Below, piece after piece: positions 19,572 through 50,050 of a DNA stretch of 64,000 nt (position 1 is its first letter; each line of letters opens with the position of its first letter). Origin of the DNA: Isoetes taiwanensis (Eukaryota > Streptophyta > Lycopodiopsida > Isoetales > Isoetaceae); the NCBI GenBank assembly GCA_021234155.1, contig JAJEKV010000052.1, positions 7,053,358-7,117,357 of the forward strand. The letters run 5' to 3'. The notes under the pieces were generated by a model. The model searched no databases. It saw nothing but the letters and a program-made list of their open reading frames with translations, and had not been told where the DNA came from. A program made the translations under genes and the position numbers.

Positions 19572-21071
19572 TGTGACGTCCCCTACTCGTATACGATGCC
19601 CGCACCGTATACAAACAAGAGTTCATCCCCCATACCAGCTCTATACTGATACAGGGCCCTCCACATATCACTGTGACCGTACTGGGTCCCCAGTGGGAAG
19701 AGTGAAGGGGTCATTTTACCCCGTCTCCCTCAGGGCCTACCTAGCTGCGGAAGCGTAAACATACATGTCAGTAAACAATATCATCACATATCCACCTCGA
19801 AGGGTGGTCTATCAACATCTGCATAGACAAAGGTCAGCACAAGACATATGGGAATCCTACCCAAGGCTCAGACTCGAAGGGATGACTGACGGCTTGGGTC
19901 TCCAGAGTTCATTGCAAACAGAATTCATGGCAATGGATTTGGCTGGCATAAGAACATGGCTTCGGGTTGTCCGCTCCATCCGCCCCTCCTGTGCACACTT
20001 TACAGAGTAGGCTGAAAAGTGTTGGGACCTGACTATAGCCCGCCGGATGCATAGCCAAAGGGGCTATTCCTGGGTTGCATCTCCCCAGTTCCGATGGGGC
20101 AGGTAGGGATCACTCCCTCCAGAGATCTACATGCTGACTCAAGGTGACTAGAGGGCCATTGCCCTTATTCGACTGAACCCACTGGAAAGTGTACACCACT
20201 CCACGGGTGTCGAGCCCATGCCTTGCCCGCACTCAGTGGCAAGCCATTAGACCTAGTCACAATGATCCCCGGTAGGCCTTACACACCAGAGGGATCGCTC
20301 AAGAGTCAGAACACGAACCTCCTTCTTAGCCAGTCTGGCCCCTTCACCCACAACCAGGTGTGGTTCTTGTACACAGGCCGAATTTACAGTGTGCTAGAGA
20401 GGCTAATCTAGGAGCATCTACTACCAAGCTTGAGGTCTCTACCCCCCTTCCCAATACAAGGAGTTCACAGAGATACATCATCCATATACATCACAGAAGA
20501 ACTAAAGAACTAGATCTAATCTATATCATAGAGTTAGGTTCTTTAGTTAGAGTCTGGTATCTAGAGATCTAAGTGGCTACTATGGGCAATTTAATAGGCT
20601 AAACCTACTGTTACAATGACTGGAAGACGGTTTAGGCTATTAAATTGACTAAATACCTGATCCTTGGCTCGCTCCTCCTGCTCTGAGTTCGACCATCCTG
20701 CTAAACTGCTTGAATCAAGGAAAACTAATGGTGCAATTCGCTTCGACGGAGTCTGGGAGGCGGTTTTGACTCCTGGGGCAGCCAAAACAGAGCTCTAGAA
20801 CCCTATGGACGAAAATGGGCATGTGGGATAATTGGGAATGGCCCACTTGCAGGTGGCATAAATGTATCTACATGGAAAGGTGTGCACCTTAATAAATGTG
20901 CACATTGGTAAATGTGCACATTAATAATAAATGCACATACCTTGCAAGTTGCCCCCTAGGGGCTACTGATCTGGCTACACGTCGGCGTACATGTCAGTCG
21001 GGGTGGCGTGTACGCGTGACGAGGCAGTACAGTATACGCCCTGGGGCCGTATACTGTGCTGGAACGTCACA
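19572..21071 (-). repeat. 3' LTR (1,500 bp)
   Basis: Begins TGTGACG and ends CGTCACA on the plus strand, so the termini are inverted repeats. It matches 34821-36394 almost throughout but lacks an about 65-bp segment and an 11-bp segment present there. A palindrome (ACAGTATACG...CGTATACTGT) lies at 21029-21057 and tandem AAATGTGCACATT words at about 20895-20940, both near the U3 end. Open frames inside the LTR are identical in both copies and are not genes. Confidence 0.95.
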
Positions 21072-21084
21072 TTCTCCCCACCTT
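21072..21084 (-). promoter_or_regulatory. Polypurine tract
   Basis: On the minus strand it reads AAGGTGGGGAGAA directly before the TGTGACG of the 3' LTR. This is the plus-strand primer site of the element. A similar AAGGTGGGGAGA word lies about 35 bp further upstream (about 21111-21123). Confidence 0.88.
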
Positions 21085-21947
21085 GAAATGATGCTGTCCG
21101 CAGCATCGTGGGTCTCCCCACCTTGGAATCCTCCTAACCTGCAATCAACCTGATGCATACAATGTACTACTATAATACTTACGCATTTATTAAGATTACC
21201 TTAAGATAATATTTCTAGAACATTATTACGCCATTATCTTCTGAAATAACTTATCAATTCGTAACATCATTAAAATAAGTTACTCAATAATTTTCTTATC
21301 ACGCAATTTAGTTTATCAAAATTTCAATATTTCATATATATACTTAACGTGCGAGGTACTCTTCGTTTCTTGCAACACATTCCAACAAAATTTGTGTTGC
21401 AAGTCTTCGTAGCTCGACCTCCTTGCCCTCCGGAGTGCTCTATTGGCCTGCAGGTCGACACTACGTTAGTACCATTTTAATTATTAATAAAATTTTGGTT
21501 ATATGGTGACCACCCCACCTATCTACATGAATGCATGGCTAATCTCCCGGCGTAGGAAGAGGATGATTCTTCCATCGTGGCCGCGGGGACAGTGCCTATA
21601 ATGCCTATATGGCGCTCATGCCTACACCTTTAGTTGCCTAGTGTGGAGGATAGGTCCTTCCCGTATATGGGGCGTGAAAGCCAGATTCCTCCTATCAATG
21701 CATATATGGGGCTAGAGGTGCTTTTCCTATCAATGCATTCCTCAATGACCTCCTTTCTCTCGAGGTCGTCTACTTCCGTGGGACAGAAGGAGACTTTCTA
21801 ATCTACCTTCCACTCATCCAAGCGGAAACGCGGTCATGCCTACATCGACATTACACCACGCCCTAGAGATCACCGTAGTGGTCTCATCATTGCAACTCAT
21901 ACCTAGCATAGGTTGCATGCGTAGATTAATCTTAACTACACATAGAA
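21085..21947 (-). other. Region between chromodomain and PPT
   Basis: Noncoding 3' region of the element, about 860 bp, with no recognised ORF. AT-rich at 21150-21360, more GC-rich near 21540-21800. Confidence 0.5.
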
Positions 21948-22181
21948 TTAATCTACACAAATCGACATGCCTGAGCCGATTTCTTCGGAGATGACCTTGC
22001 CGTCCCATTGCTCCATAAACTGTGGGTACTGCTTTAATAGATCCTACTTAAGTACCCACGTCGCGTCTTCCACCGGCAAGTGTTTCCACTTCACCAAATA
22101 TTGGAGAAATTCTGATCTCTTTGTTTTCTTGAAGGCTTTATCAAGAATCAATTCTGGAACTATTTCCAGCTGCTCCTCCGT
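21948..22181 (-). pseudogene. Chromodomain at the pol C-terminus, with internal stop
   Basis: The frame reads EIVPELILDK, then YLVKWKHLPVEDATWV, the chromodomain core of chromovirus integrases. It is followed by TAG (22044-22046) and, in frame, LLKQYPQFMEQW to a TAA at 21948. In the family this module directs integration to particular chromatin. The first cage position (Tyr in HP1, as in EYVVE) is Ile here. The Trp of VKW is kept and the third aromatic is not evident. It is separated from integrase by a retroposon insertion. Confidence 0.85.
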
Positions 22182-22554
22182 CTTTTTTTTTTTTTTTTTT
22201 TTTTTTTGAAGGCAAGATATTTTTATTTTTATTAATAGTATGTAATAAATACATTTATTTAAGGCTCCCAAAAGCCAGATGCCTAACCGTGTCAACACGG
22301 GTGCTCAAAAGCCCAAGTGTGGAGATAGAAAACAAGCATCATTCCAGAAGTTCATCAAAAGAAAATATCCCATGATGTATGAAGATGCTGCCACCTGAAA
22401 AACCTCCCGAAAATACTGGTAGACAAAAGTAGAGATGAAGGGGTGTCTCCCCGCGCGTTAACTTGGCCCCAAACCCACATCTGCAAAAGGATACAACAGG
22501 AAGACTGCTTACTCTTTTCCTGCTGTACTAGGAGATAAGTAGTCTCACCGTCTT
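22178..22554 (-). mobile_element. Poly(A) retroposon inserted between integrase and chromodomain
   Basis: The 7-bp words CCGTCTT at 22178-22184 and 22548-22554 flank about 363 bp. On the minus strand the insert ends in a run of about 25 A (T-run 22183-22207), overlapping the duplication. Removing it rejoins LEKT (integrase side) to EEQLEIVPE (chromodomain side) in frame, which supports the boundaries. The insert has no ORF. The TTAAATAAATG...ATTAATAAAAATAAAAAT 3' region resembles the other LINE-like tails of this window, so it is probably a heavily 5'-truncated LINE or a SINE. Confidence 0.82.
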
Positions 22555-23965
22555 CTCCAAATGCCGATGACTTCTAGAGGCCTCCCCTTTGGGGTCCCCA
22601 AAGGGTGGTCTACTACTTCTGTCTCTACTTTTAGTCACCTGCTTGGGCATCATCATCATTATACTCAACCAACCAGCAAAACTGATAAGCAGCAATGAAT
22701 GCATTTGGCCCTCCCGATCCATATGCCTCTGGATTTTCCCTTAAGCATGGCCTTCTTTCATGATACTGCCTCCTGCAACCACACCCTTCTTCTTGCTGGG
22801 ATAGAAGTGAGCCAACATGAAAAGCCAAACTCTTTCCAAGGTACAAAATATTAAGGCTTTCAAAATCTGTTAGACTCAACACCAAATGGCCTCCGTCATT
22901 TCCAACAACGTTGGAGTGTCCAAGACTTCGTCTGGATTTGGAGTATGCTTGGAAGACCTTATGAATCTTTAGGTGTGCTGGTAGGTCTAACTTGTAGGAT
23001 TGATTACCTACTCTCTTGACTATTCTGAAAGGTCTAGCCCACCTTGGAGCAAGCTTCTTACAATTTCCGATGCGGAGCTTCGCCTGCTTCACTTTGATTT
23101 TGAGCCACACGCTGTCGCCAACTTCGAACTCCCTGACTGTCCGATGCTTGTCGGCGATGCTCTTTTGTCGACTCCTTGCTGCCAGAAGATATCCTCGAAC
23201 TTCTTCCACTAGCTGCTGCATGTCGGCCAACATCTGCTGCGAAACCTCTACTTTTGACACGGGATTGTGCCAAGTGTCTGGAGTTAGGCACTGGTAGCCG
23301 TAATTGGTCATAAACAAAGACATTTGGGATGACTCCTGCTTGGTGCTATTATACGCAAATTCCACCAAGTGAATAAATTCTTCCCACATATCTTGCTTGT
23401 TCCAGACATAGTTTCGTAGCATATCCTCCAAAATCCTGTTGGTCCGCTCCGTCTGGCCATCCGTCTGGAGATGATAGGCCGTGCTCATGGATAGCTTCGT
23501 CTGAATTGTCGCAAAGAGGTCTTGCCAAAAGGCACTCATAAACTTCGGATCCCTGTCGGAGATAATCTCCCTTGGCATGCCATGAAGCCTGAAGATTTCT
23601 TTGGTGAAGAGCTTCGTTGTATCCATAGCGGTGTCTGTGGTCCTACAAGGCACAAAATGTGCCATCTTCGACAACTTGTCGACCACTACCATCAAGGCGT
23701 CCTTCCCTCTTACTGTCCTTGGAAGCCCTGTTATGAAATCCATGCTGATCACCTTCCACTTAGCGTTTGGCACCGCTAATGGCTCCAATGCCCCTGAAAT
23801 TCGAAGCTGCTCTGCCTTCGTTTGCTGACATAGCTGACATTCCTTGATGTAGCGAGCTACCTGCTTCTTCATTCCTGGCCAATAATAGCTGCTGCGCACT
23901 TTGAAATATGTCTTCATGAATCCTGCATGGCCAAGTCGCTGGAGAGCGTCGAAATTGCATTGCAA
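22555..23965 (-). pseudogene. Integrase (pol), N-terminally deleted
   Basis: The open frame runs 23965-22631, and the chromodomain linker in another frame continues to about 22555. An incomplete zinc-binding region is seen ([10 protein letters not shown], then WPGMKK and CQLCQQTK). Catalytic D,D,E residues are in SMDFITGLP, ISDRDPKF and TDGQTERTNRILEDMLR. A GPY/F-type region follows (KLAPRWARPFRIVKRVGNQSY), then LPAHLKIHKVF. It begins only about 50 nt after the RNase H frame ends, whereas about 100 residues normally intervene. A deletion has therefore removed the RH-IN spacer and the first zinc ligands. Confidence 0.9.
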
Positions 23966-24899
23966 TGCACTCTAGTTGTCAGGGGATGCCTTGAAAGCGC
24001 ATCCGCTACCACATTGAGCTTCCCCGGCTTGTAGACTATATCAAAGTCATACTCCTCGAGGAACTCCATCCACCTTCGCTGCCTCAGATTAAGGTGTGGT
24101 TGCGTGAATACATACTGGAGGCTCTGATGATCTGTATCCAATTGGAACTTCCTTCCCAAGAGATAGTGCCTCCAAATTCTTAATGCCCTGATAACTGCAA
24201 GCAATTCTTGATCGTGCGTCGGGTAGCGCGTCTCTGCGTCGTTCATCTTCCTAGAATCATACGCTACCACACGCTCTTCCTGCATGAGCATTGCGCCTGT
24301 GGCTATCTTACTCGCATCTGTCGCCACAAGCTTATCTTTCTCTGGGTCCGGCAGGGTTAAGACGGGGGCGGTTGTTAAAGCTTCTTTCAACAATTCAAAC
24401 CCTGCTTGGGCTTTCTTGTGCCAATGCTCTGCCCAATCTTTCACCTTCTCCGCCCTCGTCAAGTCTGTTAGCGGCGCCGCTATCTTAGCAAAGTTCTTCA
24501 CGAACTTCCTGTAGTACCCTGCTAGGCCGAGGAAACTTCTGACCTCATGGACATTCTTCGGTGCCGGCCACTGAATCACTGCTTCAATCTTGGCGGGATC
24601 CGTCGAGATTCCTTCTGCTGAGATCACATGACCCAGGTATTCCACCTTCTCCGTCGCGAAGTGACACTTCGACAACTTGGCGTACAACTGGTGCCTCTTC
24701 AATTTCTCTAGCACTCTCCTTAAGTATTGTACGTGCTCTTCAAGGGATCTGCTATACACCAAAATGTCGTCAAAGAATACTATTACAAAGGTGTCTAAGA
24801 ACTCCCTGAAGATGTCGTTCATGAGCTTCATGAACGTTGCTGGGGCATTCGATAAGCCGAAAGGCATTACCGTGAACTCATAGTGTCCATACCGCTTCT
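23914..24899 (-). pseudogene. Reverse transcriptase C-terminal half and RNase H
   Basis: Continues the RT after a one-base frame change. [13 protein letters not shown] comes first, then the catalytic [10 protein letters not shown], then [12 protein letters not shown] in the connection. RNase H shows [13 protein letters not shown] (first Asp), [14 protein letters not shown] (Glu) and TDHQSL (Asp), with [17 protein letters not shown] near its end. All landmark motifs are intact, so the domain was under selection until recently. It ends at a TGA at 23914 instead of running into integrase. Confidence 0.93.
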
Positions 24900-25625
24900 G
24901 AAGGTGGTTTTATGAATATCTTCTTCCTTTATCCGGATCTGATGATAGCCTGACCTTAAGTCAATTTTGGAGAAGACTTTTGCCCCTTGGAGCTGATCCA
25001 TTAAGTCATCTGATCTGGGGAGCACATACTTGTTCTTAATGGTGTGCTTGTTCAACTGCCTATAGTCTATGCACATCCTCAAACTGCCATCCTTCTTCTT
25101 GACAAAAAGAATGGGTACTCCAAATGGCGAGACGCTAGGTCTAATGAAGCCTAGGTCGAGCAACTCCTGCAATTGCTTCTTTAGCTCTGTCAGCTCCTGC
25201 GTCGTCATTCTGTATGGAGCCTTGCTTATTGGCTTCGTTCTTGGTTCGAGTGCTATCTCACACTCGACTCCCCTGTAAGGAGGGAGGTGCTCGATCTCAT
25301 CTGGAAAGAGATCGTGGAACTCCGTGATCAACTTAGCTACTTGCTTGGGCAACTTACTGAGCACCTTGTCTTCTTTGCTTTCTTCTGACTCCGGCTCTTC
25401 AATCTCAAGCTTGAAGATGTATGCTACCTGCTCGCTTTTGATGCACTTGAACAGCTGTTTACTTGACATGCACTGCATGATGGGAGCAACTTCTTTACCT
25501 GTGATCTCGATAATCTTGCCGTCGGGCGTTGTGAAGATCACCTTCCGCTTTCCACAATCAACGATGGCCCCTACTGGTCCAAGATACTCCATTCCTATGA
25601 TCAAGTTGTACTTGCCAATATTCAT
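24867..25625 (-). pseudogene. Protease C-terminal part and RT N-terminal half
   Basis: From the ATG at 25625: [16 protein letters not shown] (end of the aspartic protease, ILGMDWL-like), a 60-residue linker, then RT fingers [52 protein letters not shown], and [13 protein letters not shown] with the first catalytic Asp. The frame is lost just after KTTFR at about 24893-24905, where TRYGHYEF-type sequence should continue. Reading one base over restores the family motif. Confidence 0.93.
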
Positions 25626-25916
25626 TACTTATGCCCCCATCTGGATGTTGATTCCCGGCAAATCATTGTCGAAGTTTATCCTTTTGTCTGCTGTATGCCT
25701 TACTCCCCCGTTTGCTAACACGACGGGTCTTGGCTTGGACTTCAATGGCTTGGGCTTCAACATTTCAACCATTCTTGGGGATGCAAAGTTGTGGCTACTT
25801 CCCGAATCTATCAGGACTATGAAGGACTTGGCCTTGGCCTTCCCTACTGTGGAAATTACCTTATACTGGTTCTCTGCTTGTTCTGTGTCTATTGCGGCAA
25901 AGATATGACGCTCACC
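25626..25916 (-). pseudogene. Aspartic protease (pol) active-site part
   Basis: The frame reads HIFAAIDTEQ, then VLIDSGSSHNFASP with the DSG catalytic triad of retropepsins, then GGVRHTADKR and LPGINIQMGA. An in-frame TAA follows, one residue before the ATG at 25625. Upstream it is cut by the 25917-27160 insertion. Without that insertion, GER joins from the gag side to HIF in frame. Confidence 0.9.
25906..25916. repeat. 11-bp duplication, left (TGACGCTCACC)
   Basis: Identical to 27161-27171 and in coding sequence of the gag-pro junction. It is the target duplication of the 1,244-bp insertion. Confidence 0.9.
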
Positions 25917-27160
25917 AATGTTGTTAAAAAACCCGTTTTTTATTTTTAAAGTACTTCTATAAAAATCCTCACGTACTTTAAAGGATTTTTATGATTTGGC
26001 ATGGCCAAAAAATAAAAAATAAAAAAATTGCACATTCTTTGCACTGCTTTATTGGACATATTTGCTACTGTTAAAATGCACATTATTGCTACAAGTTATA
26101 AGACATAGCATGCCAACAAGTAAATCAGAAGCTTATGCTACTATTAGAAACTATTAAGTTCAAGTACAAAGATATCGTAGTTGTTTTGCCATGCAACTCT
26201 TAAGAAAGTTCAGAAAAACATTATTATAGAGGTTAAGAAGTATAAGAATTTTATATACAAAGATAAATAAGTTTAAGAATATCATATATTTGGATAAAAA
26301 AAAATCACAGTCTAAGGATTTTTAAGGATTTTTAAAGATTTTTAAGGATTTTTAAGGATTTTTAAAGAAGGATTTTTAAGGATTTTTAAGATTTTAAAGA
26401 TTTTTAACGTATTTTATATAAATACGTTTTTAAAGTTTTTTTTTCAAAAATTTTAAAAATCTTCAAAAAATCTTAAAAAAACATTTTTTAAACGTACGGA
26501 TTTTGACGTACTTAACAACATTGCTGTGGATATGCATGTCTTATATATACAATATGTTAATAGATCTGAATTACATAATAAGGTACATAGGGATTGAGTA
26601 TAGATCTAATAATTGGTAAAATGATGGTAAGAAATGTACTGGTAAAAGGATGGTAAGAAATATGCTGCCCCATGAATAATTTATGCGTAATGGGGGATTT
26701 TGGTTGATCTACACATCAAGGTGGTTAAAAAACCCGTTTTTTATTCATAAAAATCTTCTATAAAAATCTGTACGTACTCTAAAAGATTTTTATGGAATGG
26801 GATGGCCAAAAAAAAAAAAATTGCCCTAATTTTTTTGTGCACATTTAGGTTTAGGGTTTGAATGTTTAGAATTAAGGTTTACAGGGGTTAGAATGTTTAG
26901 GTTTAGGGTTAGAATGTTTAGGCTTACATTGTGTACACAGGTTTAGGGTTAGAATGTTGAAAATTTAGGATTACAGGTTTAGAATTTAGGTTTAGGGTTA
27001 GAATTGTAGGCTTACAGGTTTAGAATTTCATATTGTAATGGCTATATTGTAATTTCTATAAAATTTGTATTCTAAGGATTTTTATATTTTTTTAAAAAAC
27101 CTTTAAAAAATCTTTGCATACGGATTTTTAAGGTACGGATTTCTAAGTACTCAACTACCT
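25917..27160. mobile_element. Insertion of two related AT-rich TIR units
   Basis: The insert contains two similar units in the same orientation. Unit 1 (25917-about 26526) starts AATGTTGTTAAAAAACCCG and ends GTACTTAACAACATT. Unit 2 (about 26720-27160) starts AAGGTGGTTAAAAAACCCG and ends GTACTCAACTACCT. Each has about 11-bp imperfect inverted ends and a TATAAAAATC...GTACGT block. Unit 1 has tandem TTTTTAAGGA words (26308-26400). Unit 2 has degenerate TTTAGGG telomere-like words (26846-27005). About 195 bp separates them. No coding capacity. The superfamily is uncertain; 9-11 bp duplications would fit Mutator-like elements. Confidence 0.75.
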
Positions 27161-27171
27161 TGACGCTCACC
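27161..27171. repeat. 11-bp duplication, right (TGACGCTCACC)
   Basis: Second copy of the target duplication at 25906-25916. Confidence 0.9.
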
Positions 27172-28479
27172 CTGAATATAGTCGCGGACTGGCTCGCCGT
27201 CGTCGTCAGACGGAGTGTCCCAATCTTCCAACTCCGCTAGCGCTGCACTCATGACGTAGGGGCAGTTCGTTGTCCTGTGGCCCGGCTAGAAGCACCTGAA
27301 GCAAAGCTGCTTCTCTATGCACTCCTGTCTCTTCTCCTTGGGCATGGCTTGCAAGAAGGACTGCACTGCTTTGGAGTAGTTTGACCCCTCCTGCTTGTCC
27401 TTGAAGGACACCTGCTTCTTCTCTTGCTGCTTCCCCTGGTTGCCACCATATGGGGCTCTAGCTGGACCTGGGCTGGCTGCCCTAGGGCTATAACTCCCTG
27501 TTGCCTTGCCTTTATCCTGGTAATACTGCTGCCTCTGCCCCCTATTCTGAGGCCCCATTCCTTGCAAGCTTATTGCATTGGACTCTGCTTCTGATACTAT
27601 CTTAGGGTTTATTGCCCTTACAAGCTTGCGGATCTCATCATTCAGCCCCTCAATGTAGCTCTCCATTGCATGCTTTTCACCCAACTTTGGCACATAAAGC
27701 CTTAGCCTCATGAATTCCTCTGTATATTTCTGGACTGATTTGTTGCCTTGCTGCAACCTGTAGAACTGCTGTATCATGCTGGACTTGTGCTCTCTTGGGA
27801 CGTAATGGCGCTTGAAGGCTTTAACAAACTTTCTGAACCTGCAAGCATCCCTGCTCAAGCCATGGGTCTTTGCATAACCCTTCCACCAAATGCGTGTTGC
27901 TCCTTTCAGGTTGGCTGTTGCCACCCTGCCTTTATCCTTGTCCTTCATACTATAGGCGTTGCCGTATTCACTCATCTCATCGAGCCAAGCCTCTGCTTCC
28001 ATGCCCGACCTATTCTCGCCTGAGAATTGCTCGAGCTTCATGGCCTTCCATACGTTTCCCAATGCAGAGTCTACCTTCTTCTGGTAGTCCGAGGTTCTCG
28101 TCTCCTTGTGTCTGTCGTCCCTTCGGTCCTGCACTGGTTCAGCCTCTTCCTCGGAGTCAGAGTCTGAGTCCGAGCTGGGGTCGGAGGATTCCGTACTGGG
28201 GGACCTCCTTCTCTTGCTCCTCCTCTTGTCCTTCCCTGCTTTCCAAGCTGATGCTTGTGGCAACTGAGCGTTGCCCTCCAAATCAACTCCTGCTTGTGCG
28301 GCCGGGAAAGCCTTTATCTGCTCAAGGTCCGTCCTCATCTGTGACATTTCCTCCTCTGGGGTCATGGGTCCAAATGCCTCATACAGGTTCCTTGCTGGGG
28401 GTGGCCTGGGCAGAGTCTGTTCTTCTCTATGGTCTCGGCGTTGTCGTTCCCCTGAGCCTGGGCCTCTAGCTGCATACAC
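27172..28479 (-). pseudogene. Gag (capsid and CCHC nucleocapsid), stop in zinc knuckle
   Basis: Starts at the ATG at 28479 (MYAARGPGSGERQRRD). A charged, Ser/Asp-rich region lies at residues about 80-130. The retrotransposon Gag core follows (about 145-290): KLEQFSGE, AEAWLDEM, RIWWKGYAKTH, FVKAFKRHYVP, QGNKSVQKYTEEFMRL. A Gly/Gln-rich tail leads to the zinc knuckle CFRCF-stop-PGHRTTNC, whose CCHC ligands are all present but whose sixth position is TAG (27286-27288). The frame then continues to GEPVRDYIQGER at the insertion site. Gag coats the genomic RNA. With the stop, Gag would lack a complete nucleocapsid finger and be cut off from Pol. Confidence 0.93.
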
Positions 28480-28646
28480 AAGTAGGTCATGGCTGTACGG
28501 TTAGTTTCATTTATTCTCTTGCATTATATATGTTTGTTGGTATAGTTGTGGAACAAAATACATCAACAAAACATTTAAAGTGCAAAAGAAATTATATTCA
28601 TATTATATAATATCCTAATACAAAACCTCCGGGATCAAGAGTCTGA
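28480..28646 (-). other. Spacer between cargo gene 2 and gag
   Basis: AT-rich on the side adjoining the cargo gene 2 stop, with ATATTATATAATATG-type sequence. It could serve as that gene's 3' UTR/polyadenylation region. No defined AATAAA is evident. Confidence 0.4.
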
Positions 28647-30153
28647 CTATTCTTGAAATCGCCGGTAGGATGGGTTGTCCTCAAGGAACTTCTTAACTTG
28701 GGCCGTTCCTGCCGAGCGTCCCAAGTTCCTAAGGACATTGGTGGATGACCCGCCTTGCAAGGCTGTCACCAATTCTTCTACCCTGCGGTCGGAGGCGTAG
28801 GCCGCTGTTACTGCCAATCTCCCCTGCCGTCGGTAGGCCACGGCGAAGTCGAAGAGGTCAAGTGCCATCGCTCTCTTGACTAAGACAGCATAGTCGACAT
28901 TTGCAGCTATTCGAGCATGCCTGCCAAAGCCAGAGAGTGCAATGAGCATGAACACTCCTTCTTCGCCTCGTGGACTGAATTTGCGGTGTACCACCGCTAT
29001 TCTCCCATCCAGCAGCAGAGGAAGGTAGTACCTCAGTGACCTGTCGTTGTGTGTCGCAGATGATTCTCCACTTGCTTGGCCTCCAGCTCTATGTCGTCCG
29101 GCGTATTCGTCGACCTCTATCTCCGTCATTTCTTGATAGTCTCTGATTGTCGAGTCGACCCGCCTGATGTCGATCCCTGCTCCTCTTGCTGGAGGTGGTG
29201 TTGAGGGACTCGGCATCAAAATGCTCGTTGTCTTGCCGCGGATCCCCATCCATTCCTGGATGGCCAGGAACTCCTCCTCTGATGGCAGTTCTCGAGCTTC
29301 CATGATTTGTCGTATGTTGCTGTAGGCCTGGATATCGGAAGTCGACTCCCCTGTATAGGTGTCAGCACTTGAAGCGGGAAGTCTGAGACTCCCCGGACGA
29401 TGAAGTCGTCCAAGTCTGGTTGTTGCCGTAGTTGGTGCAGCAACTCATCGAGCCGAAACTCCCTCTCCCTGCATTCGGGGAAATGCTGTATGTCACTGAG
29501 GAGCAGATACTCCTCACCGTCGATGATGATGGGGGCTAGGCTTGTGATACCTAGCCCTAGTGGGGGAGCGACTCTGAGGTTTTGCCGGCTCCGCTCGAAG
29601 TTGGTGAGCTCCTCTTCTGCTTGCCGCCGTTCGTCCTCTGGGTCGAGCTCCGTATATTCTTCCTCTTCTGATTCCTCTTCATCTGCTCTTCCTTCTTGCT
29701 CTTGATGGTACTGCAAAAGCATCTGCTCTGCTGCTGCGGTTACCTCCATGGGAGGAATAGAGGTTGCTTCCATTGGGTTTTCGGCACGGTGGGAAAGGAA
29801 AATGGCTAAGGCGGCGGTGTAGGAAAAATACTTGGTCCTGTCAACTGTCAGGACCATGTAATCTGGCAGCCTCTGTGCCTTGTTCGTCAAGTACTTGGCA
29901 ATGTTCGGAACATCGCCCAAGGCTGCTTGAAGGGATGGGCGGGAACAAAATAGCCTATGCAAGGGGGTAGCTGCACTAGGGAAGGTCCTAGCCTAGCTTG
30001 GAACTCGGCTAAGACTTGCCTATATGCTGGGGTCGCATGCAGAGTTGCTTGGACATCTATCTCTTTCCTAAAGACTCGGAAGATGTCGTTGACATCCGCC
30101 TCGGCAGCATGGGCGCTGGCGCTGTACCATCGCCTGAAGTCAGCAGTTGCCAT
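28647..30153 (-). CDS. Cargo gene 2: unidentified acidic protein, frameshifted
   Basis: The first ATG after the TATA box at 30272-30279 is at 30153 (MATADFRRWYSASAHAAEAD). The frame changes at a G5/C5 homopolymer (29963-29967) and again near 29370-29400. Following the frames gives about 500 residues: a helical N-terminus, RLFCSRPSLQAALGDVPNIA, a strongly acidic patch (DEEESEEEEYTELDPEDE), IIIDGEEYLLLSDIQHFPE, an S/T/P-rich hinge, and a C-terminal domain RYYLPLLLDGRIAVV...VFMLIALSGFGRHARIA ending SYRRFQE-stop. I do not recognise the family. Acidic patches are common in histone chaperones and nuclear proteins, but no chaperone fold is demonstrated. It shares promoter architecture with the H3-like gene, which suggests co-expression. 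Confidence 0.7.
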
Positions 30154-30271
30154 GGATCTAAGGAAGATGAGACTAACAAACGAAAGCAAAAGCGCCTCAG
30201 GGAGCTGGAAAATCGCCTAAACAGTCAAGAGCAAACTTGTAAGGTTGCTAAGTGAGGAATGGCCCCGGACC

Positions 30272-30279
30272 TATTTATA
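30272..30279 (-). promoter_or_regulatory. TATA box of cargo gene 2
   Basis: Minus-strand TATAAATA in the context CTATAAATAGG, 119 bp upstream of the ATG at 30153. That ATG is the first one after it. The leader contains GCTTTCGTTTG and ATCTTCCTTAGA words that also appear, in another order, in the leader of cargo gene 1. Confidence 0.7.
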
Positions 30280-30471
30280 GAAAAAGGTAAAACCCTAATT
30301 TTTGGATGACCTGGAATTTTACTGGGGTTGGGCAATTCTGACCTATTAAGAGGTCCAAATGAGAATTTGAAGACTACTTTTAGGGTTTGAGCATGCTAAG
30401 ATTGGCTAATGAACCTATTGCAATAAACTGGAGGTCATTTGGATATGGCATGGTGGAGAAAATGCTGAGAG

Positions 30472-30538
30472 GTCTCACACGTTGCGCCCAGGCCGATAAT
30501 GAAAAGTTCATTTTCTGCCCTGGCGCGACGTGTGAGAC
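30472..30538. repeat. 67-bp hairpin palindrome P1 (upstream of cargo gene 2)
   Basis: GTCTCACACGTTGCGCC at one end and GGCGCGACGTGTGAGAC at the other pair over 17 bp (one G-U in RNA). An inner AATGAA/TTCATT stem follows. It lies about 193 bp upstream of the TATA box of cargo gene 2. One of four copies, all inside this retrotransposon and all next to cargo promoters. Confidence 0.93.
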
Positions 30539-30671
30539 ATTGGCTCTAATTGGGTTAAACTTGTCCAATTTGGGTGATGTAAGGGTCTAATTCTACTGGA
30601 CTCGTCGAGTTAGGTAGAATTAACCCTTTATTTGGTCAATTTGGAGCAGTTTTGGGCACTTTTGGGGCATG

Positions 30672-30738
30672 GTCTCACACGTTGCGCCCAGCCCGAAAAT
30701 GAAAAGTTCATTTTCTGTCCTGGCGCGACGTGTGAGAC
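30672..30738. repeat. 67-bp hairpin palindrome P2 (upstream of cargo gene 2)
   Basis: Exactly 200 bp from P1 and nearly identical, with outer arms conserved and inner stem AAAATGAA/TTCATTTT. It sits between the end of cargo gene 1 (stop 30883) and the promoter of cargo gene 2. Confidence 0.93.
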
Positions 30739-30882
30739 ATCCTCTCAAATTTGCTCAAAGTGTCCATTTTAACTAAAACAAAAGCCAGAATTCGATATCT
30801 TAACCTACTTAAGCAATATTACACATATTACTTAACCGAAAATTGTTTATATTAACAAATGTTTTCTATTATTTACAAAATC

Positions 30883-31197
30883 TTAAGGGCGCTCTCCCTT
30901 GATATGGCTAGCAAGATGCATGTCTTGCCTCATGAGTGTGACCCTCTTCGCGTGAACTGTGCAGGCCGTCGAATCTTCGAAATGCTGCACCAGTTTTTGC
31001 TCTGCTGCTTCCTGCAGGGCCAACAACATTTCGTCGGTCACCCTCATATCCGTGTTGTATTCTTGAACTACCTCTCGGACCAGGCGGTTGAACGGTGCTC
31101 GGGGGATCAAAAACCCGTAGCTTCTCTGAAAGTGCCTGATCTCCTTGAGGGCTCTCCTCTCGGTCTCCTTCCTGCCGGTCCTCTTCTTCCCTGTGCT
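30883..31197 (-). CDS. Cargo gene 1 exon 3: complete H3 histone fold
   Basis: 104 codons plus stop. It starts directly after a CCTCCTAG acceptor with STGKKRTGRK, which parallels STGGKAPRK of the H3 tail (residues 10-18). ALKEIRHFQRS matches the alphaN helix. PFNRLVREV fits the H3 family signature P-F-x-R-L-V-R-E-[IV]. NTDMR occupies the alpha1/loop-1 position and ALQEAAE begins the central alpha2 region. FEDSTACTVHAKRVTLM is the alpha2-L2 segment and retains the buried Cys. The C-terminus IKGERP compares with IRGERA. Loop 1 has the canonical length, unlike centromeric H3. The lineage-specific changes are mostly conservative, so the fold was under selection. Confidence 0.95.
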   Translation of the reverse strand, partial: STGKKRTGRKETERRALKEIRHFQRSYGFLIPRAPFNRLVREVVQEYNTDMRVTDEMLLALQEAAEQKLVQHFEDSTACTVHAKRVTLMRQDMHLASHIKGERP

Positions 31198-34133
31198 CTA
31201 GGAGGCTTGGGCTTCGGTGGTGGCGGCTTCAGAGTTTGGCTCTTCGTCGGGTGTCCGCCTTCGATAGTTCTTACCCTGTTCTCCAGGTAGTACGCGTTGT
31301 ACGCCTCCCACTTCACCATGAAGGCGTTGTGCTCCCTTAGCTTCTTCTGATAGACCTTAACAGGGTCTATCACGTACGCCTCTCGAGCTGGCCGGGGTGC
31401 TTTGACTCGGTCCCACGTCGGGTATGGTGGGGGGCTTCTGCGGCTGCTCGGGCTGCTCCGGGTCGGGCTGCTCCTGGTCGGGTACTACCTGCTCGACAAC
31501 TGGGGGTTTTGAAGAGCTTGCACCCTCGGTGTTGGGGACGAAGTCTTCGTCGGAATCATCGGTGGAGGGCGGGGTCTGGTCCGCTGAGGGTTCGTTAATG
31601 ACTAAACCCTTTACCCGCTTAACCTGCACGACTTTTCTTTTGCCCACCATCTTGCCTTTCGCCTTCTTCTTCTTCGGCTCCTCCTCTTCCCTCTTTCTCT
31701 TCTTTTCTCGACGGCGCTCTTTGGCTTCATGCTTTGCAATCCACGCCGCGAGCTCTTCCTCCTCAGCTGGCTCGAGCCTCGGCTCCCTCTGTTCCTCTCG
31801 CTCCTCAGCCTCCTTCAAACGAACCCAAGCTTCGAGCTGCTCCTCGATGGTTGGCTCAAGGGTCGGCTGCCTCTGTTCTTCCTTCTCTGTTCTTCTTTCT
31901 TCTTCATTTCCTGTTGACCCTAAACCTGGCTTAAGGATCAACCACAAGGAACCAACTTGAGCTTTCACTCAAATTGGGGTTAGAACCTCCAGATCACTTA
32001 AGGTGATCAATCTATGCAAGCAAATTTCAATGATAAGTCCAAAAACTTGAAGTTTTGTACCTTTCCCATTTCCAGAAATTGACACCTTTGTCAAAACAGT
32101 TGTGGTATTGATATGCAAATCGATTTTTTGAGTCAACCACTGTAGACTTAGTCAGAAAAGATGTAGGTACTCAAAGGTAAAGCTTCTGACCAAGTCAGAA
32201 ATATAGTTTGTGAGTTATTCGAGCTCAAAGTGCAGTCAAAATTTGGTCAATAGCAGTCAAAATCTGAAAACAGTGATTAGAGATTGGAATTTTGGAGTTG
32301 CCAGACGAGTTGTTGAGAATCTCCAAAGCAAATGTGCTTTAATGGTGATAAGGAATCTAGGCAAAAATGGTCGATTGTCATCCGGATAAGCAAAAGTAAT
32401 TTTTGTTGGATTTGGCAAAATACAGTCAAGAATAGTCAAAACAGAGTGCAAAAATTTCTAACTCAAGTTGTGAGTGGGATTTTTTGGATTTTTCAAGGCA
32501 TATAGGTTCCAGATGCTTCAAGGATTGATGGCAAATGGATCAAAGGTAATCAAAAGTACTCGGGGATTTTCTATAAAATTTTGAACAGAGGAAAAATTGT
32601 AAAGGATCATAACAGAGATAATTTCTTCAGATAGGCATCAAATTTCATTGATAGGAATGTAAATCAATCATAATAATGTTGGATAATAATAATTCAGTAC
32701 TTCAAAATCAACTTCAGGTCAATAAAAAGTTTCAATAGATAATTTCCAACCAAATCTCTTGTGACTTGATCGGGGATTACTCGAGAGACTTCCAAAATCC
32801 TTCGGTCATGCTCAAGAATGATCACAAGAAGGTTTGTAACCACGGGCCTTCAAAAAAAAAATCCTTTTGTCGAATCCCATGTTTTTATCTTAGTTTTCAA
32901 ATGTTTGCTTAATCTTAGCCTTGATTGATGGGTTTATTCGGTTCATAAAGAGTGGGAAGGTCAAAATAGGTAGATTCCGAGGGCTCTGGTGCCAAATCCG
33001 GCGAGATTCGAGGTGGAAGCGAAATTTAGGGTTCTTGGTCTGTATTTTCTCGAGAAAATAGCGATCACGATTTCGTATTTTTTTGCCCGTGATATCCATG
33101 GAATATCTTTGTATTTTTTATTTTTGCAAAGCTAGGCCATGGTTTTAAAAGGTCACTTATAGAAAATTGAAGAGGTGGATCACTTTAGCAATGGCAACCC
33201 TAATTTTTCTTTGGGAATATGCTAAGTCCTTGGGCATAATGGTCAAGAATATTCCATAAAGTATACAAGTGGCATGGCATAATGGTAAGGACTTGCAAAA
33301 GGGTCTTGGCTAGGGAAATTTGCAAAAACAAATGTCATATGAAGTGAGAAAGTATAGAGGCAATGGGGGAATGTGGATGTAATGGAGAAAGGAAAATTTG
33401 GGTAAGGCAAAATAAGGTAGACAAGGGTAAACAAAAAGGAGGGTATGGGTGTGGGAAGAAATGGCTAGAAAATCTCAATGGATAGAGATAGAATATGAAC
33501 AATGATTGGATGAGAATGGCTAAGGGATAAAATCAAGCACCATGGGGTCTTCCAAACTCTTTGACTTCCAATCTTCAAAAAATGTCTTCCAAACTTCATA
33601 ACCCAGAATCTTCTAGAGCATACTTTTTTACTAAGCATTTTGACCTCAAATAAAGTACCTCATGTAAATTTGAACCTTGAGCACTTGTTGACCTGAAGAA
33701 GGAACATCCTTTGACCTCCATATCAATGTTAAATGCCAAGGGTCTTCCAAACTTTGACCTAGTCTTCTAAAGTAAATTGACCTAGTTTGAATGCATAGAC
33801 CACAATTAGCATGTTGCCCTTTGGGGGCAACATTTCCTCCTCGACCCGATCTTCTTCTTCTTTCTCCTTCCTTGCCACTTCTTCAAGGATTTTCTGCATA
33901 ACGTCCGGCTGCTCTTCGCCCTGGACCTCTGTTCCGGCGCCGGAGTGGGCATCCTCCTCTACCTCTGTGTCACCCCCTTCTTGGTCGTTGTTGTTGTTGG
34001 GGTGCTCTTCGGACAACTCTCCCTCGCTTTGACCTTCTTGCCGAGCGACGCGCTGCCGAAGCATCTCCTGGAGTATGGCGCTGGGAGGAGTGACACCTGG
34101 AGGGACTCTAGCAGTCTGTTTGGTCCTGGCCAT
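30883..34133 (-). CDS. Cargo gene 1: retrotransposon-borne H3-like histone (spliced model)
   Basis: Proposed exons are 34133-33782, 31925-31275 and 31197-30883. Residues 1-9 are MARTKQTAR, the exact start of histone H3. Then come an acidic low-complexity linker, a K/E-rich segment with KKKKAKGK, a P/Q-rich part and a DPVKVYQKKLREHN segment. Finally STGKKRTGRK leads into ALKEIRHFQRS, PFNRLVREV, ALQEAAEQKLV, FEDSTACTVHAKRVTLM and IKGERP. Those motifs cover the H3 alphaN, alpha1, alpha2 and alpha3 helices in order with no gap, about half identical to canonical H3 by my hand alignment. Total about 430 residues against 135 for H3. One frame change at a six-base homopolymer (31429-31434) remains unexplained by splicing. 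The expected role is nucleosome incorporation or mimicry, which is inferred. Confidence 0.88.
31198..31274 (-). other. 77-nt intron in cargo gene 1
   Basis: Donor AGG|GTAAGA and acceptor CCTCCTAG|AGC. Removal joins ...YYLENR to STGKKRTGRK in phase 0 and bypasses the stop (TAG at the acceptor itself) that closes the fold's frame upstream. Reading straight through instead gives a P/R-rich run, which ends at the TGA just after the HFQRSYGF-coding stretch. The fit of donor, acceptor, phase and frame is the best evidence that this is a spliced gene. Confidence 0.82.
31275..31925 (-). CDS. Cargo gene 1 exon 2: charged linker
   Basis: Begins after TTAAGCCAG. It encodes NEEERRTEKEEQ, two repeats of the type LEP-x-EE-x-L-AW (EEQLEAWVRL and EEELAAWIAK), a basic nuclear-localisation-like run (EKKRKREEEEPKKKKAKGK), SDEDFVPN, and a Q/P/E repeat region. 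After a frame change at the six-base G/C run 31429-31434 it continues as YPTWDRVKAPRP, EAYVIDPVKVYQ and MVKWEAYNAYYLENR. The two-residue-spaced repeats suggest internal duplication. Mostly disordered; a DNA- or protein-binding role is possible but unproven. Confidence 0.7.
31926..33781 (-). other. Probable 1.86-kb intron in cargo gene 1
   Basis: AT-rich, without minus-strand coding potential, between two GC-richer exons. The proposed donor CTAG|GTCAAT and acceptor TAAGCCAG|GTTTAG are phase-matched (phase 1). A second acceptor 15 bp downstream (TCAACAG|GAAATG) has the same phase. The donor is not strong and the boundaries are less certain than for the 77-nt intron. The alternative is two separate genes. 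Confidence 0.55.
33782..34133 (-). CDS. Cargo gene 1 exon 1: H3 N-tail and acidic linker
   Basis: The ATG at 34133 is the first after the TATA box, 103 bp upstream. Codons read MARTKQTAR then VPPGVTPPSA. All eight residues after Met equal the H3 tail, including Lys4, but Lys9 and Ser10 are replaced by Val and Pro. The following 100 residues are a short helix (ILQEMLRQRVARQEG) and a low-complexity acidic stretch (NNNN, EGGDTEVEEDAH), ending near LPPKGNMLIVV. A frame read without splicing ends at 33759, so 33760-33781 would be intronic in this model. Confidence 0.85.
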
Positions 34134-34235
34134 GCTTGACGGTTCGTCGATCCGAGCTGTGCGCCAGAAGATCGCCTTGGCAAACGAGAGCAGATTTTCT
34201 AAGGAAGAACGTGAAAATGGGGAGGGTCCTAGGTC

Positions 34236-34243
34236 TATTTATA
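34236..34243 (-). promoter_or_regulatory. TATA box of cargo gene 1
   Basis: Minus-strand TATAAATA inside GTCTATAAATAGACC, about 103 bp before the first ATG (34133). Distance and context match the TATA box of cargo gene 2. Confidence 0.7.
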
Positions 34244-34333
34244 GACGGGCCATTTTAGGTCAAATTTCAAACTACCCTTTTGGGTCATCTAGAACACCTA
34301 AAACACCTAAATTTAAGCATTTCTAACCTCATG

Positions 34334-34400
34334 GTCTCACACATTGCGCCCAGACTGAAAATGAAAGTTTCATTTTTGGTCCTGGCGCGACGTGTGAGAC
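34334..34400. repeat. 67-bp hairpin palindrome P3 (upstream of cargo gene 1)
   Basis: Same outer arms as P1/P2 (GTCTCACACATTGCGCC / GGCGCGACGTGTGAGAC). The inner stem AAAATGAAA/TTTCATTTT differs in sequence from P2 yet still pairs. It lies about 90 bp upstream of the TATA box. Confidence 0.93.
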
Positions 34401-34548
34401 ATGGTGGATTCTGATGCTAAATTTTATACTTCCTAAGCATGTTTTTAGGAATGTAACATACTAATTCTAGCTAATTCCTAGTTTAAAATTCGAATTACCA
34501 AGTTATTTTTCTAGAATTCATGACTTTTTAAGGTGTTTTGGGCTCAAT

Positions 34549-34615
34549 GTCTCACACGTTGCGCCCAGCCCAAAAATTAGATTTTCATTATCTGTCCTGG
34601 CGCGACGTGTGAGAC
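34549..34615. repeat. 67-bp hairpin palindrome P4 (upstream of cargo gene 1)
   Basis: Outer arms intact. The inner stem is weaker (CAAAAATTAGATTTTCATTA). It is 215 bp from P3. Arms contain ACGTG, the core bound by plant bZIP/bHLH factors, and GGCGCG. Confidence 0.92.
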
Positions 34616-34807
34616 CATCCTTCTTTTTGAAGGTTTGGATCACTAATTTTAGTCTTTTTATGTTCTCATTCACTTTAATTGTTACTATCTTAGCATATAC
34701 TACAAAAATGAGAAAAAAATTTCCCATTTTTCGAGGTTCGAGAATCCTATCAAGTTAGTACTACTGGGAGCATGGTCAGTGCTTTGCTCTTGGTCTCCAA
34801 GAACATT

Positions 34808-34819
34808 GCTCTGATACCA
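34808..34819 (-). promoter_or_regulatory. Primer-binding site (initiator tRNA-Met)
   Basis: Minus-strand TGGTATCAGAGC one base after the 5' LTR end (CGTCACA-G). This is the standard sequence complementary to the 3' end of plant tRNA-iMet, used to prime minus-strand synthesis. Confidence 0.96.
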
Positions 34820-34820
34820 C

Positions 34821-36394
34821 TGTGACGTCCCCTATTCGTATATGATGCCTGCACCGTATACAAACAGGAGTTCATCCCCTATACCAGCTCCATCGTCTGG
34901 GGCCCTCCACATATCATCGTGGCCGTCTTTGGGTCCCCAGTGGGAAGAGTGAAGGGGTCATTTTACCCCGTCTCCCTCAGGGCCTACCTAGCTGCGGAAG
35001 CGTAAACATACATGTCAGTAAACAATATCATCACATATCCACCTCGAAGGGTGGTCTATCAACATCTGCATAGACAAAGGTCAGCACAAGACATATGGGA
35101 ATCCTACCCAAGGCTCAGACTCGAAGGGATGACTGACGGCTTGGGTCTCCAGAGTTCATTGCAGACAGAAGTCATGGCAATGGATTTGGCTGGCATAAGA
35201 ACATGGCTTCGGGTTGTCCGCTCCATCCGCCCCTCTGTGCACACTTTGCGAGTAGGTGAAAAGTGTTGGGACTGGACAGTAGCCCGCCGGATGCATAGCC
35301 AAAGGGGCTATTCCTGGGTTGCATCTCCCCAGTTCCGATGGGGCAGGTAGGGATCACTCCCTCCAGAGATCTACATGCTGACTCAAGGTGACTAGAGGGC
35401 CACTGCCCTTATTCGACTGAACCCACTGGAAAGTGTACACCACTCCACGGGTGTCGAGCCCATGCCTTGCCCGCACTCAGTGGCAAGCCATTAGACCTAG
35501 TCACAATGATCCCCGGTAGGCCTTACACACCAGAGGGATCGCTCAAGAGTCAGAACACAAACCTCCTTCTTAGCCAGTCTGGCCCCTTCACCCACAACCA
35601 GGTGTGGTTCTTGTACACAGGCCGAATTTACAGTGTGCTAGAGAGGCTAATCTAGGAGCATCTACTACCAAGCTTGAGGTCTCTACCCCCCTTCCCAATA
35701 CAAGGAGTTCACAGAGATACATCATCCATATACATCACAGAAGAACTAAAGAACTAGATCTAATCTATATCATAGAGTTAGGTTCTTTAGTTAGAGTCTG
35801 GTATCTAGAGATCTAAGTGGCTGCTATGGGCAATTTAATAGGCTAAACCTACTGATACAATGACTGGAAGACGGTTTAGGCTATTAAATTGACTAAATAC
35901 CCGATCCTTGGCTCGCTCCTCCTGCTTTGAGTTCGACCATCCTGCTGAACTGCTTGAATCAAGGAAAACTAATGGTGCAATTCGCTTAGACGGAGTCTGG
36001 GAGGCGGTTTTGACTCCTGGGGCAGCCAAAACAGAGCTCTAGAACCCTATGGACGAAAATGGCAAGTTATAGTTTCCTCCTACCTAAATAGACAAGGGGT
36101 TAGAGCTAGGGTTTCCAATTATCCCTTTAGGCATGTGGGATAATTGGGAATGGCCCACTTGCCTTTAATGGCTAGGTGGCATAAATGTATCTACATGGAA
36201 AGGTGTGCACTTTAATAAATGTGCACATTGGTAAATGTGCACATTAATAATAAATGCACATACCTTGCAAGTTGCCCCCTAGGGGCTACTGATCTGGCTA
36301 CACGTCGGCGTACATGTCAGTCGGGGTGGCGTGTACGCGTGACGAGGCAGTACAGTATACGCCCTGGGGCCGTATACTGTGCTGGAACGTCACA
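34821..36394 (-). repeat. 5' LTR (1,574 bp)
   Basis: TGTGACG...CGTCACA. It differs from the left LTR at roughly 2% of positions. About 14 differences crowd into the first 130 bp (34821-34950, the end next to the PBS), and another cluster is near 35235-35285. It retains about 65 bp (36063-36130) and 11 bp (about 36164) absent from the other LTR. The U3-end palindrome is at 36352-36380. Confidence 0.95.
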
Positions 36395-36399
36395 TCATT
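36395..36399. repeat. Target site duplication, right (TCATT)
   Basis: Identical to 19567-19571. Marks the right edge of the retrotransposon. Confidence 0.95.
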
Positions 36400-49635: not shown

Positions 49636-49639
49636 ATGT

Positions 49640-50050
49640 TCCTTATTAGTTTATGCGTTGTATCAGTCATTGTTGAACAATGATACTTGGGACTTGTGTC
49701 GCCTCCCTACTAATAGAAAGGTTGTTGCTTGCAAATGGGTATACAACGTAAAGTGTGATGAACGTGGAACATTGATAGATCAAGGCACGTTTGGTAGCCA
49801 AGGGAACTCACAAGTGCCAGGCGTAAATTTCTATGGAACATTTGCTCCGGTTGCCCGCCTCACCTCTGTTCGCTTGGTGATTGCCTTAGCAGTAGCCCAT
49901 GGCCTAGACTTATAGCAGATGTACGTCAAGACTTCTTTTCTTAATGGTAAACTCAAGGAAGAAGTCCGCATGAAACAAGCAGCAGGATTTATCAAAAGCC
50001 AAGAACAATTAAGTGTACAAGCTTAAAAAGGCAATTCATGGACTCAGACA
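49640..50050 (+). pseudogene. Ty1/copia reverse transcriptase N-terminal fragment
   Basis: NDTWDLCRLPTNRKVVACKW and VYNVKCDERG, then YGTFAPVARLTSVRLVIALA, HGLDL-stop-QMYVKTSFLNGKLKEEV. This is the start of the copia RT domain (WVY-K, FAPV, DVKxAFLNG). The first catalytic position reads V-K-T-S rather than V-K-T-A with a preceding Asp replaced by Tyr, and a stop lies at 49913-49915. It ends before the YVDD motif. Confidence 0.85.

Follow-up and report, generated by a model that had tools for sequence, protein, structure and literature searches.

A histone H3-like gene inside a Ty3/gypsy chromovirus of Isoetes taiwanensis

Introduction

Can an LTR retrotransposon carry a histone gene of its own? 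Retroelements read histone marks through chromodomains, and the 64,000-nucleotide stretch of Isoetes taiwanensis DNA analysed here (the window) raises the question of whether one of them has also encoded a histone. According to the initial annotation, no retroelement was known to carry a core histone. Our literature search likewise turned up no histone in any LTR element, but fungal hAT DNA transposons carry H3: according to the accessible parts of the reports, H3L-carrying elements occur in Pyrenophora tritici-repentis (PMC3538342) and in Pseudocercospora and relatives (PMC6710886).

Results

The H3-like ORF is enclosed by a complete Ty3/gypsy chromovirus of 16.8 kb (19572-36394; Table 1). 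Gag, protease, RT, RNase H, integrase and chromodomain follow one another between two LTRs that are 97.6% identical (36 differences in 1,503 aligned sites), a primer-binding site and a polypurine tract are present, and the TSD TCATT stands on both sides (36395-36399 and 19567-19571), so the TSD-bounded chromovirus of the initial annotation is borne out. The protease remained below the Pfam cut-off (20.4 against 24.3 bits), and a tRNA scan found none. The primer-binding site is of plant type, matching plant initiator tRNA-Met. The H3-like ORF lies between this site and ORF-X/gag, in sense on the gag-pol strand; this position and a promoter layout like that of ORF-X support the central claim of an H3-derived gene in an LTR chromovirus.

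Table 1. Features of the chromovirus and its H3-like ORF (window positions)
Feature	Position	Strand	Remarks
5′ LTR	34821..36394	-	1,574 bp; ends TGTGACG...CGTCACA
Primer-binding site	34808..34819	-	TGGTATCAGAGC; adjoins 5′ LTR; read directly
Palindrome 1 before H3-like ORF	34545..34619		half-site GTCTCACACGTYGCGCC in both orientations
Palindrome 2 before H3-like ORF	34330..34404		
TATA box of H3-like ORF	34236..34243	-	TATAAATA; 110 nt upstream of ATG
H3-like ORF, piece 1	33833..34133	-	MARTKQTAR and acidic linker
Nested LTR-like insertion	31912..33832	-	1,921 bp, splitting the H3-like ORF; probably solo LTR; TSD GGAAA
H3-like ORF, piece 2	31426..31911	-	charged linker; frame change near start
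H3-like ORF, piece 3	31200..31425	-	linker, shifted frame
H3-like ORF, last piece	30883..31197	-	basic stretch, complete H3 fold, stop
Palindrome 1 before ORF-X	30670..30744		
Palindrome 2 before ORF-X	30470..30544		
TATA box of ORF-X	30272..30279	-	TATAAATA; 126 nt upstream of ATG
ORF-X	28647..30153	-	second accessory gene; three frames in present copy
gag	27286..28479	-	PF03732 E 1.2e-17, PF19259 E 3.6e-14
pol	22634..25988	-	protease, RT, RNase H, integrase; disrupted by frame changes
Nested retroposon	22183..22889	-	25-nt poly(A); GACGGAGG flanking both sides
Chromodomain	22001..22160	-	approximate, hand-counted; one internal stop; PF00385 E 4.1e-11, from a typed 74-residue piece with X in place of the stop
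Polypurine tract	21072..21084	-	AAGGTGGGGAGAA; just before 3′ LTR
3′ LTR	19572..21071	-	1,500 bp

The last piece of the ORF encodes the complete H3 fold that had been proposed: Pfam family PF00125 scored 92.3 bits (cut-off 26.4; E 3.5e-26), and the alignment with H3.3 of PDB 7ux9 is ungapped with 48 of 88 residues identical, in agreement with the earlier estimate of about half. The closest PDB sequences were H3.3, H3.1 and H3.2 (best 60 of 177 matches), and a PDB sequence search at E 1e-30 returned none. When a model of the fold was submitted to Foldseek, the best 50 matches listed were nucleosome, octamer or tetrasome entries, with 46-53% identity and TM ~0.6. A core fold above the Pfam gathering score, with best matches to H3, is as expected of a histone H3. 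The N-terminus of the ORF is the MARTKQTAR noted at the outset, starting at 34133(-) on the gag-pol strand. Residues 1-8 of H3 are identical, K4 included, and V9 P10 stand where H3 has K9 S10; the full tail set of K4, K9, S10 and K27 is not present, and no K27-like context was seen by eye in the tail. Under the numbering and roles that we assume for H3-H3 interface and DNA-contact positions, the fold retains C110, H113, D123, L126, R69, R72, R83, R116 and T118 and carries the substitutions R49K, R63P, F84V, K122Q and R129H. The DNA-contact changes of R63 to P, F84 to V and R49 to K are counted against the explanation that we favour.

The H3-like ORF and ORF-X have a promoter layout in common, in which two 72-bp palindromes are followed by TCTATAAATAG and a TATA box lies 110-126 bp before the ATG; the palindromes are spaced 215 bp apart before the former and 200 bp apart before the latter. 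Eight half-sites with at most three mismatches were found in the window against 0.05 expected, and 8/8 fall within the four palindromes. The best match between the two proximal promoters is the 11-bp TCTATAAATAG only, which 19 of 1,000 shuffles equalled. TATA box and palindromes together look like a candidate promoter of the H3-like ORF's own. We also considered whether the palindromes delimit a nested cassette that holds the H3-like gene, and set this aside because each pair is similarly placed before each of two ORFs; the repeats do not form a single pair of ends, as the terminal inverted repeats of an H3L hAT element would. ORF-X has a 501-aa relative, P0055, with 46% identity over 99%, and is therefore a real gene; it gave no Pfam family above its cut-off, and its predicted structure (mean pLDDT 37) was too poor for a structure search.

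The common layout implies a regulatory module common to the H3-like gene and another element gene, and the former therefore looks like an accessory gene owned by the element. The layout bears directly on the strongest competing explanation, a one-off transduction in which a single element took along, as a passenger with no role in the element, a host gene for an H3 variant whose divergence from H3 had arisen in the host. The H3-like ORF is known from one copy, with no second among the search matches, and the capture of a gene by a single copy or a handful of copies has already been described, as the accessible text of a review indicates (PMC7264820). However, ORF-X, which has a diverged relative, possesses the identical double-palindrome and TATA arrangement, and the H3-like ORF lies in sense directly behind the primer site; we consider the transduction unlikely.

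A search with the linker plus fold (176 residues) gave 12 matches, spanning 32-65%, about the fold, and 0 outside it, while the fold-only search gave 42 matches, none recognized by eye as a relative of the same gene; viral contigs scanned with the H3 fold, gag, RT and P0055 yielded no relative. Because the matches P0002, P0004 and P0005 also have long linkers preceding an H3 fold, this design is not unique to the element. In the tree the H3-like fold has an end branch of 1.81 and stands weakly (79/30) beside P0017 and P0027, with H3.3 closest by path and no supported placement. The protein resembles plant CENH3 and canonical H3 in its histone fold and its N-terminus (MARTKQTAR in H3, MARTK in Arabidopsis CENH3, P0045), but differs from them in being about half identical in the fold, in the ~325 residues from tail start to fold and in V at position 9. 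A derivation from centromeric CENH3 rather than canonical H3, which concerns origin and is compatible with an accessory gene, is suggested by 11 residues common with Arabidopsis CENH3 and not with H3.3, including some in ALKEIRHFQ, LIP and RVTLMR. Yet 13 residues are common with H3.3 and not with CENH3, loop 1 has the length of that in H3 and lacks the two residues inserted in Arabidopsis CENH3, and the tree gives the fold no supported placement; this origin appears improbable.

The LTRs have diverged by only 2.4%, yet 40 of the 88 fold residues are unlike those of H3.3, with neither a stop nor a gap. In neutral simulations of the fold, 75/1,000 in one run and 256/3,000 in another were stop-free, a BLOSUM score as high as the observed one arose in 19/1,000 and 56/3,000, and 15/3,000 combined the two; the constraint test is modest, because 15 of the 256 stop-free simulations attain the score. 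Of the columns conserved in relatives (≥70%), the fold keeps 41 of 52, against 7 of the 36 remaining columns, a comparison biased in favour of constraint by relatives that were picked for similarity to the query. Such constraint may have acted on a host gene before capture. An assembly chimera, or a host histone locus trapped between unrelated LTRs, is very improbable in view of the matching TSD, the near-identical LTRs, the primer site and polypurine tract abutting them, the consistent strand and the promoter layout common to two ORFs.

The long gap within the H3-like gene is most likely a later insertion. Its ends are TGTTGCCCC...GGGTCAACA, that is, TG...CA, and the 5-bp direct repeat GGAAA flanks it; among 122 site pairs sharing a 5-mer in the two boundary zones tested, the GGAAA pair is the only one that also has TG...CA ends. 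The GC content is 37% in the insertion and 56-57% in the coding pieces on either side. The single gene model spliced across this gap in the initial annotation, with a 1.8-kb intron, is hardly credible: although both halves lie on one strand and together read as a single H3 protein, and frame-compatible splice pairs exist (best acceptor 2.74, between the 95th (2.18) and 99th (3.27) percentiles), the TG...CA ends, the duplicated 5-mer and the lower GC indicate an insertion, and the best donor (0.98) barely exceeds the 90th percentile (0.90; 95th 2.21) for the window's GT sites. Splice sites were scored throughout by consensus weights, with percentiles taken among sites of the window.

If the gap is an insertion, the H3-like gene was once essentially one ORF of ~440 codons. 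The linker between tail start and fold is charged and coding, as had been noted, but measures ~325 residues in our own join rather than ~290 and has frame changes within it. Codon-position GC at 31425-31275 (0.56/0.36/0.76) is a coding pattern resembling that of the neighbouring pieces on both sides; this pattern is absent at 31274-31198, which could be a 77-nt intron in place of one frame change. The donor of this candidate (4.54) exceeds the 99th percentile and the two frames are joined in phase, but the acceptor is ordinary (-0.64) and the segment has 58% GC with 9% T, which is atypical of a plant intron. An in-frame intron at 31377-31198, which would delete a stop, was rejected, its donor being weak and 31425-31275, when read in its own frame, having the codon-position GC of coding sequence. 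Besides the insertion, the present copy contains three frame changes (one replaceable by the 77-nt intron) and is therefore unable to make the full-length protein.

Discussion

We regard the H3-like ORF as probably an accessory gene of the element. Slightly less firmly, we favour the whole explanation, mechanism included, in which an H3-family gene was taken up by a plant-type Ty3/gypsy chromovirus that then retained it as its own. The model applies to the intact ancestor of the family; the present copy is dead. In that ancestor, the H3-like gene would be transcribed from the internal palindrome-TATA promoter, independently of the genomic LTR transcript, and its product would pair with host H4 via its fold and present an N-terminus with a readable and modifiable K4 and no K9. 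Either the chromatin of the element would be kept from silencing, or the integration machinery would be held on nucleosomes; an anti-silencing or tethering role of this kind is a tentative proposal, somewhat unlikely as judged at present. Bolder, and quite unlikely, is a chromovirus lineage encoding its own chromatin, in which a palindrome-controlled module of H3-like gene and ORF-X would provide a histone that replaces or caps host H3 on element DNA, its N-terminus being markable at K4 and free of K9 methylation, thereby blocking the mark used by host silencing and by heterochromatin-reading chromodomains.

An additional ORF (aORF) of Grande reportedly has its own promoter, and the Isoetes element is like such plant systems in combining an accessory ORF with a candidate promoter. 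In the accessible text of a review, aORFs of plant LTR retrotransposons are commoner between pol and the 3′ LTR, whereas the H3-like ORF sits ahead of gag; the word histone is absent from the main text of that review (PMC7264820). As far as their accessible text goes, giant Ty3/gypsy elements of Phalaenopsis, which have an ORF for an AlkB-type m6A demethylase, are similar in being plant Ty3/gypsy elements with a host-type domain acquired in an additional ORF, but differ in the domain and belong to another lineage, with a dual RNase H like that of Tat; the same source screened 121 angiosperm genomes and retained 15 extra domains after filtering, with no histone among the approximately ten named (PMC9289625). 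The fungal H3L hAT elements, as described in the accessible parts of both reports, likewise carry and multiply an H3-derived extra ORF, but they are DNA transposons with terminal inverted repeats and no long linker is mentioned there (PMC3538342, PMC6710886), whereas in Isoetes an LTR retrotransposon combines its plant-type primer site with a long linker in the H3-like ORF and with the palindrome-TATA layout. Tm1 of root-knot nematodes was set aside as a precedent, since the accessible account concerns a hairpin motif in the RNA of histone genes and not a histone protein (PMC3169594).

With the H3-like gene, histone capture, known from fungal DNA transposons, is seen in an LTR retrotransposon as well. 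If the explanation is true, an element supplying part of the nucleosome would represent a new level of the conflict between transposons and host chromatin, and whether an element-encoded H3 without K9 shields element DNA from silencing would become a testable question. Certain retrotransposons may have produced a DNA-packaging protein in a version of their own.

Results

The H3-like sequence lies, as the initial annotation had proposed, inside a complete Ty3/gypsy chromovirus: TCATT flanks the element on both sides, the LTRs (1,574 and 1,500 bp; termini TGTGACG...CGTCACA) are near-identical, and gag is followed by a weak protease, RT, RNase H, integrase and chromodomain, which is the chromovirus order. 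Over 1,503 aligned sites the LTRs differ by 27 transitions and 9 transversions (97.6% identity, K2P 0.024), the alignment having a further 88 gapped columns and a few flanking bases counted in. TGGTATCAGAGC, which we take to match plant initiator tRNA-Met, follows the 5′ LTR, and AAGGTGGGGAGAA precedes the 3′ LTR. This primer site and the element types would point to a plant host. Gag-pol is interrupted by frame changes, stops and a retroposon. Most of the aromatic cage seems to be absent from the chromodomain, which would presumably place it in group II. A 2025 review describes group I chromodomains as binding H3K9 methylation (PMC12786077).

Some 1.3 kb between gag and protease (25913-27290) is AT-rich and repetitive, containing tandem repeats and a 108-nt direct repeat (83% identical); it is a candidate intron or insertion separating gag from pol. 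Elsewhere in the window are a degenerate 2.3-kb minisatellite array (46446-48746; ~31-bp units of the AGATTCCCC type) and, by eye, Ty1/copia RT-like (49538-49912, plus strand) and LINE RT-like (299-1627, plus strand) fragments.

Features of the H3-bearing element
Feature	Coordinates	Strand	Remarks
Complete LTR retrotransposon	19572-36394	minus	16,823 bp
Poly(A)-tailed retroposon	22183-22889	minus	707 bp; 8-bp repeat GACGGAGG on both sides; between integrase and chromodomain
ORF-X	30153-28647	minus	between H3 gene and gag; in three frames in this copy; ~500 residues, no Pfam family
Palindrome pairs (four palindromes)	30470-30744 and 34330-34619		each pair upstream of one accessory ORF
Insertion between the two H3 parts	33832-31912	minus	1,921 bp; ends TGTTGCCCC and GGGTCAACA; 5-bp duplication GGAAA

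The translation of 30883-31197 (minus strand) scores 92.3 bits against PF00125, the best 60 of its 177 PDB sequence matches are all H3, and it aligns gap-free with H3.3 at 48 of 88 identical residues, bearing out the complete fold and the ungapped, roughly half-identical alignment first annotated. MARTKQTAR at 34133 (minus strand) is likewise the exact H3 start, with valine, not lysine, at position 9. An AlphaFold model (mean pLDDT 80.6; 29 sequences) positions four helices as in H3 and matches nucleosome H3 chains, with a TM of only ~0.6 and an rmsd of at least 5.6 Å, values that we ascribe to the predicted helix arrangement of an isolated monomer.

The initial annotation had joined the two H3 parts by splicing. 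That both belonged to one ancestral gene still holds, but the proposed long intron gives way to an LTR-type insertion, recognized by its ends and GGAAA duplication and probably a solo LTR; its GC content is 37%, that of the coding flanks 57% and 56%. Splice pairs that keep the frame are present across the gap but of moderate quality: the best donor lies a little over the 90th percentile and the best acceptor between the 95th and 99th. Beyond the insertion the linker stays coding, with frame changes near 31.9 kb, 31.43 kb and 31.2 kb; codon-position GC of 31425-31275 in its own frame is coding-like (0.56/0.36/0.76). The third frame change may be a small intron, because the adjacent 77 nt are not coding-like (0.58/0.62/0.56), open on a strong donor (GTAAGA), close on TAG and, if excised, would leave the last two frames joined in phase; the 58% GC and 9% T of this stretch, however, count against an intron. 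With or without it, the ancestral gene would have encoded H3 residues 1-8, a charged linker of ~325 residues (~290 as initially estimated) and the H3 fold. Given the LTR divergence of 2.4%, decay after the element inserted plausibly accounts for the ORF damage.

Neutral simulations, in which the fold drifted freely to 48/88 identity from the window's own bases, stayed stop-free in 75 of 1,000 cases in one run and 256 of 3,000 in the other. The observed BLOSUM score was reached in 19/1,000 and 56/3,000, and jointly with freedom from stops in 15/3,000 (15 of the 256 stop-free simulations). When conserved sites were defined by the share of relatives agreeing with H3.3, 41/52 were kept at the 70% threshold (other sites, 7/36), 35/42 at 80% (13/46) and 23/25 at 90% (25/63), a result favoured by the relatives having been found through similarity to the window sequence itself. 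These results suggest that the fold was once under selection, either within the element or, prior to capture, in a host gene.

ORF-X has a sole match, P0055 (501 residues, on a 2,007-bp contig of a public assembly), in a search that scored only the 8,000 candidates with most words in common; its 46% identity over 99% supports the ORF-X frames and shows a gene conserved in one relative. Each accessory ORF is preceded by two near-perfect ~72-bp palindromes, 215 or 200 bp apart, and then by TCTATAAATAG, with 110 nt (H3 ORF) or 126 nt (ORF-X) from TATA to ATG. This motif is the best common stretch of the two proximal promoter parts; block shuffling reached its score in 19 of 1,000 cases. Allowing up to 3 mismatches, the 64-kb window contains eight copies of the half-site GTCTCACACGTYGCGCC against 0.05 expected, every one within the four palindromes, for which roles as operator-like sites, cruciforms or sources of hairpin RNA are conceivable. 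Of the evidence for an element-owned H3 gene, as opposed to a passenger, this common layout is the strongest.

Protein searches gave 12 matches among 258 candidates for linker plus fold, spanning 32-65% of the 176 query residues around the fold, and 42 among 44 for the fold alone; by eye, none of these 54 represented the same gene. A long linker also precedes the fold in three H3-fold relatives (P0002, P0004 and P0005). A maximum-likelihood tree of 30 rows gave the window fold no placement (end branch 1.81), setting it only weakly (79/30) beside P0017 and P0027. The fold agrees with H3.3 alone at 13 residues and with Arabidopsis CENH3 alone at 11, and the CENH3 insertion in the loop is missing from it. 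Two other H3-like proteins, P0003 (282 residues) and P0007 (483 residues), on contigs of 259 and 919 kb, have by eye a long repeat-rich region in common outside the fold, possibly representing another multicopy H3-bearing gene. P0049, P0051 and P0052 (contigs of 8-11 kb), also H3-like, resemble one another closely, lack the start of the H3 tail and are apparently multicopy.

Discussion

The initial annotation knew of no retroelement carrying a core histone. For LTR retrotransposons this stands, none with a histone gene having been recognized in a literature search of journal papers, mostly open-access; mobile precedents do exist, in the H3L genes of Pyrenophora (PMC3538342) and Pseudocercospora (PMC6710886), although these fungal carriers are hAT DNA transposons whereas ours is an LTR retrotransposon. 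A screen of 121 angiosperm genomes reports 15 extra domains, with no histone among about 10 of them, and describes orchid Ty3/gypsy elements carrying an m6A demethylase whose captured domain is active in vitro (PMC9289625); the main text of a review of additional ORFs does not contain the word histone (PMC7264820). The H3 gene would be a case of accessory-gene capture by a retroelement, a phenomenon already known.

The anatomy, the essential continuity of the ORF, the promoter layout and the fold are shown by the sequence analysis. The gene would be transcribed from an internal promoter, and the protein would pair with H4 and present an H3 N-terminus without K9. Its most likely use would be to shield element chromatin from H3K9-based silencing or to tether the element to nucleosomes, roles that we advance, even taken together, only as a doubtful proposal. 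Should the H3 gene prove family-wide, the interest of the finding would be high.
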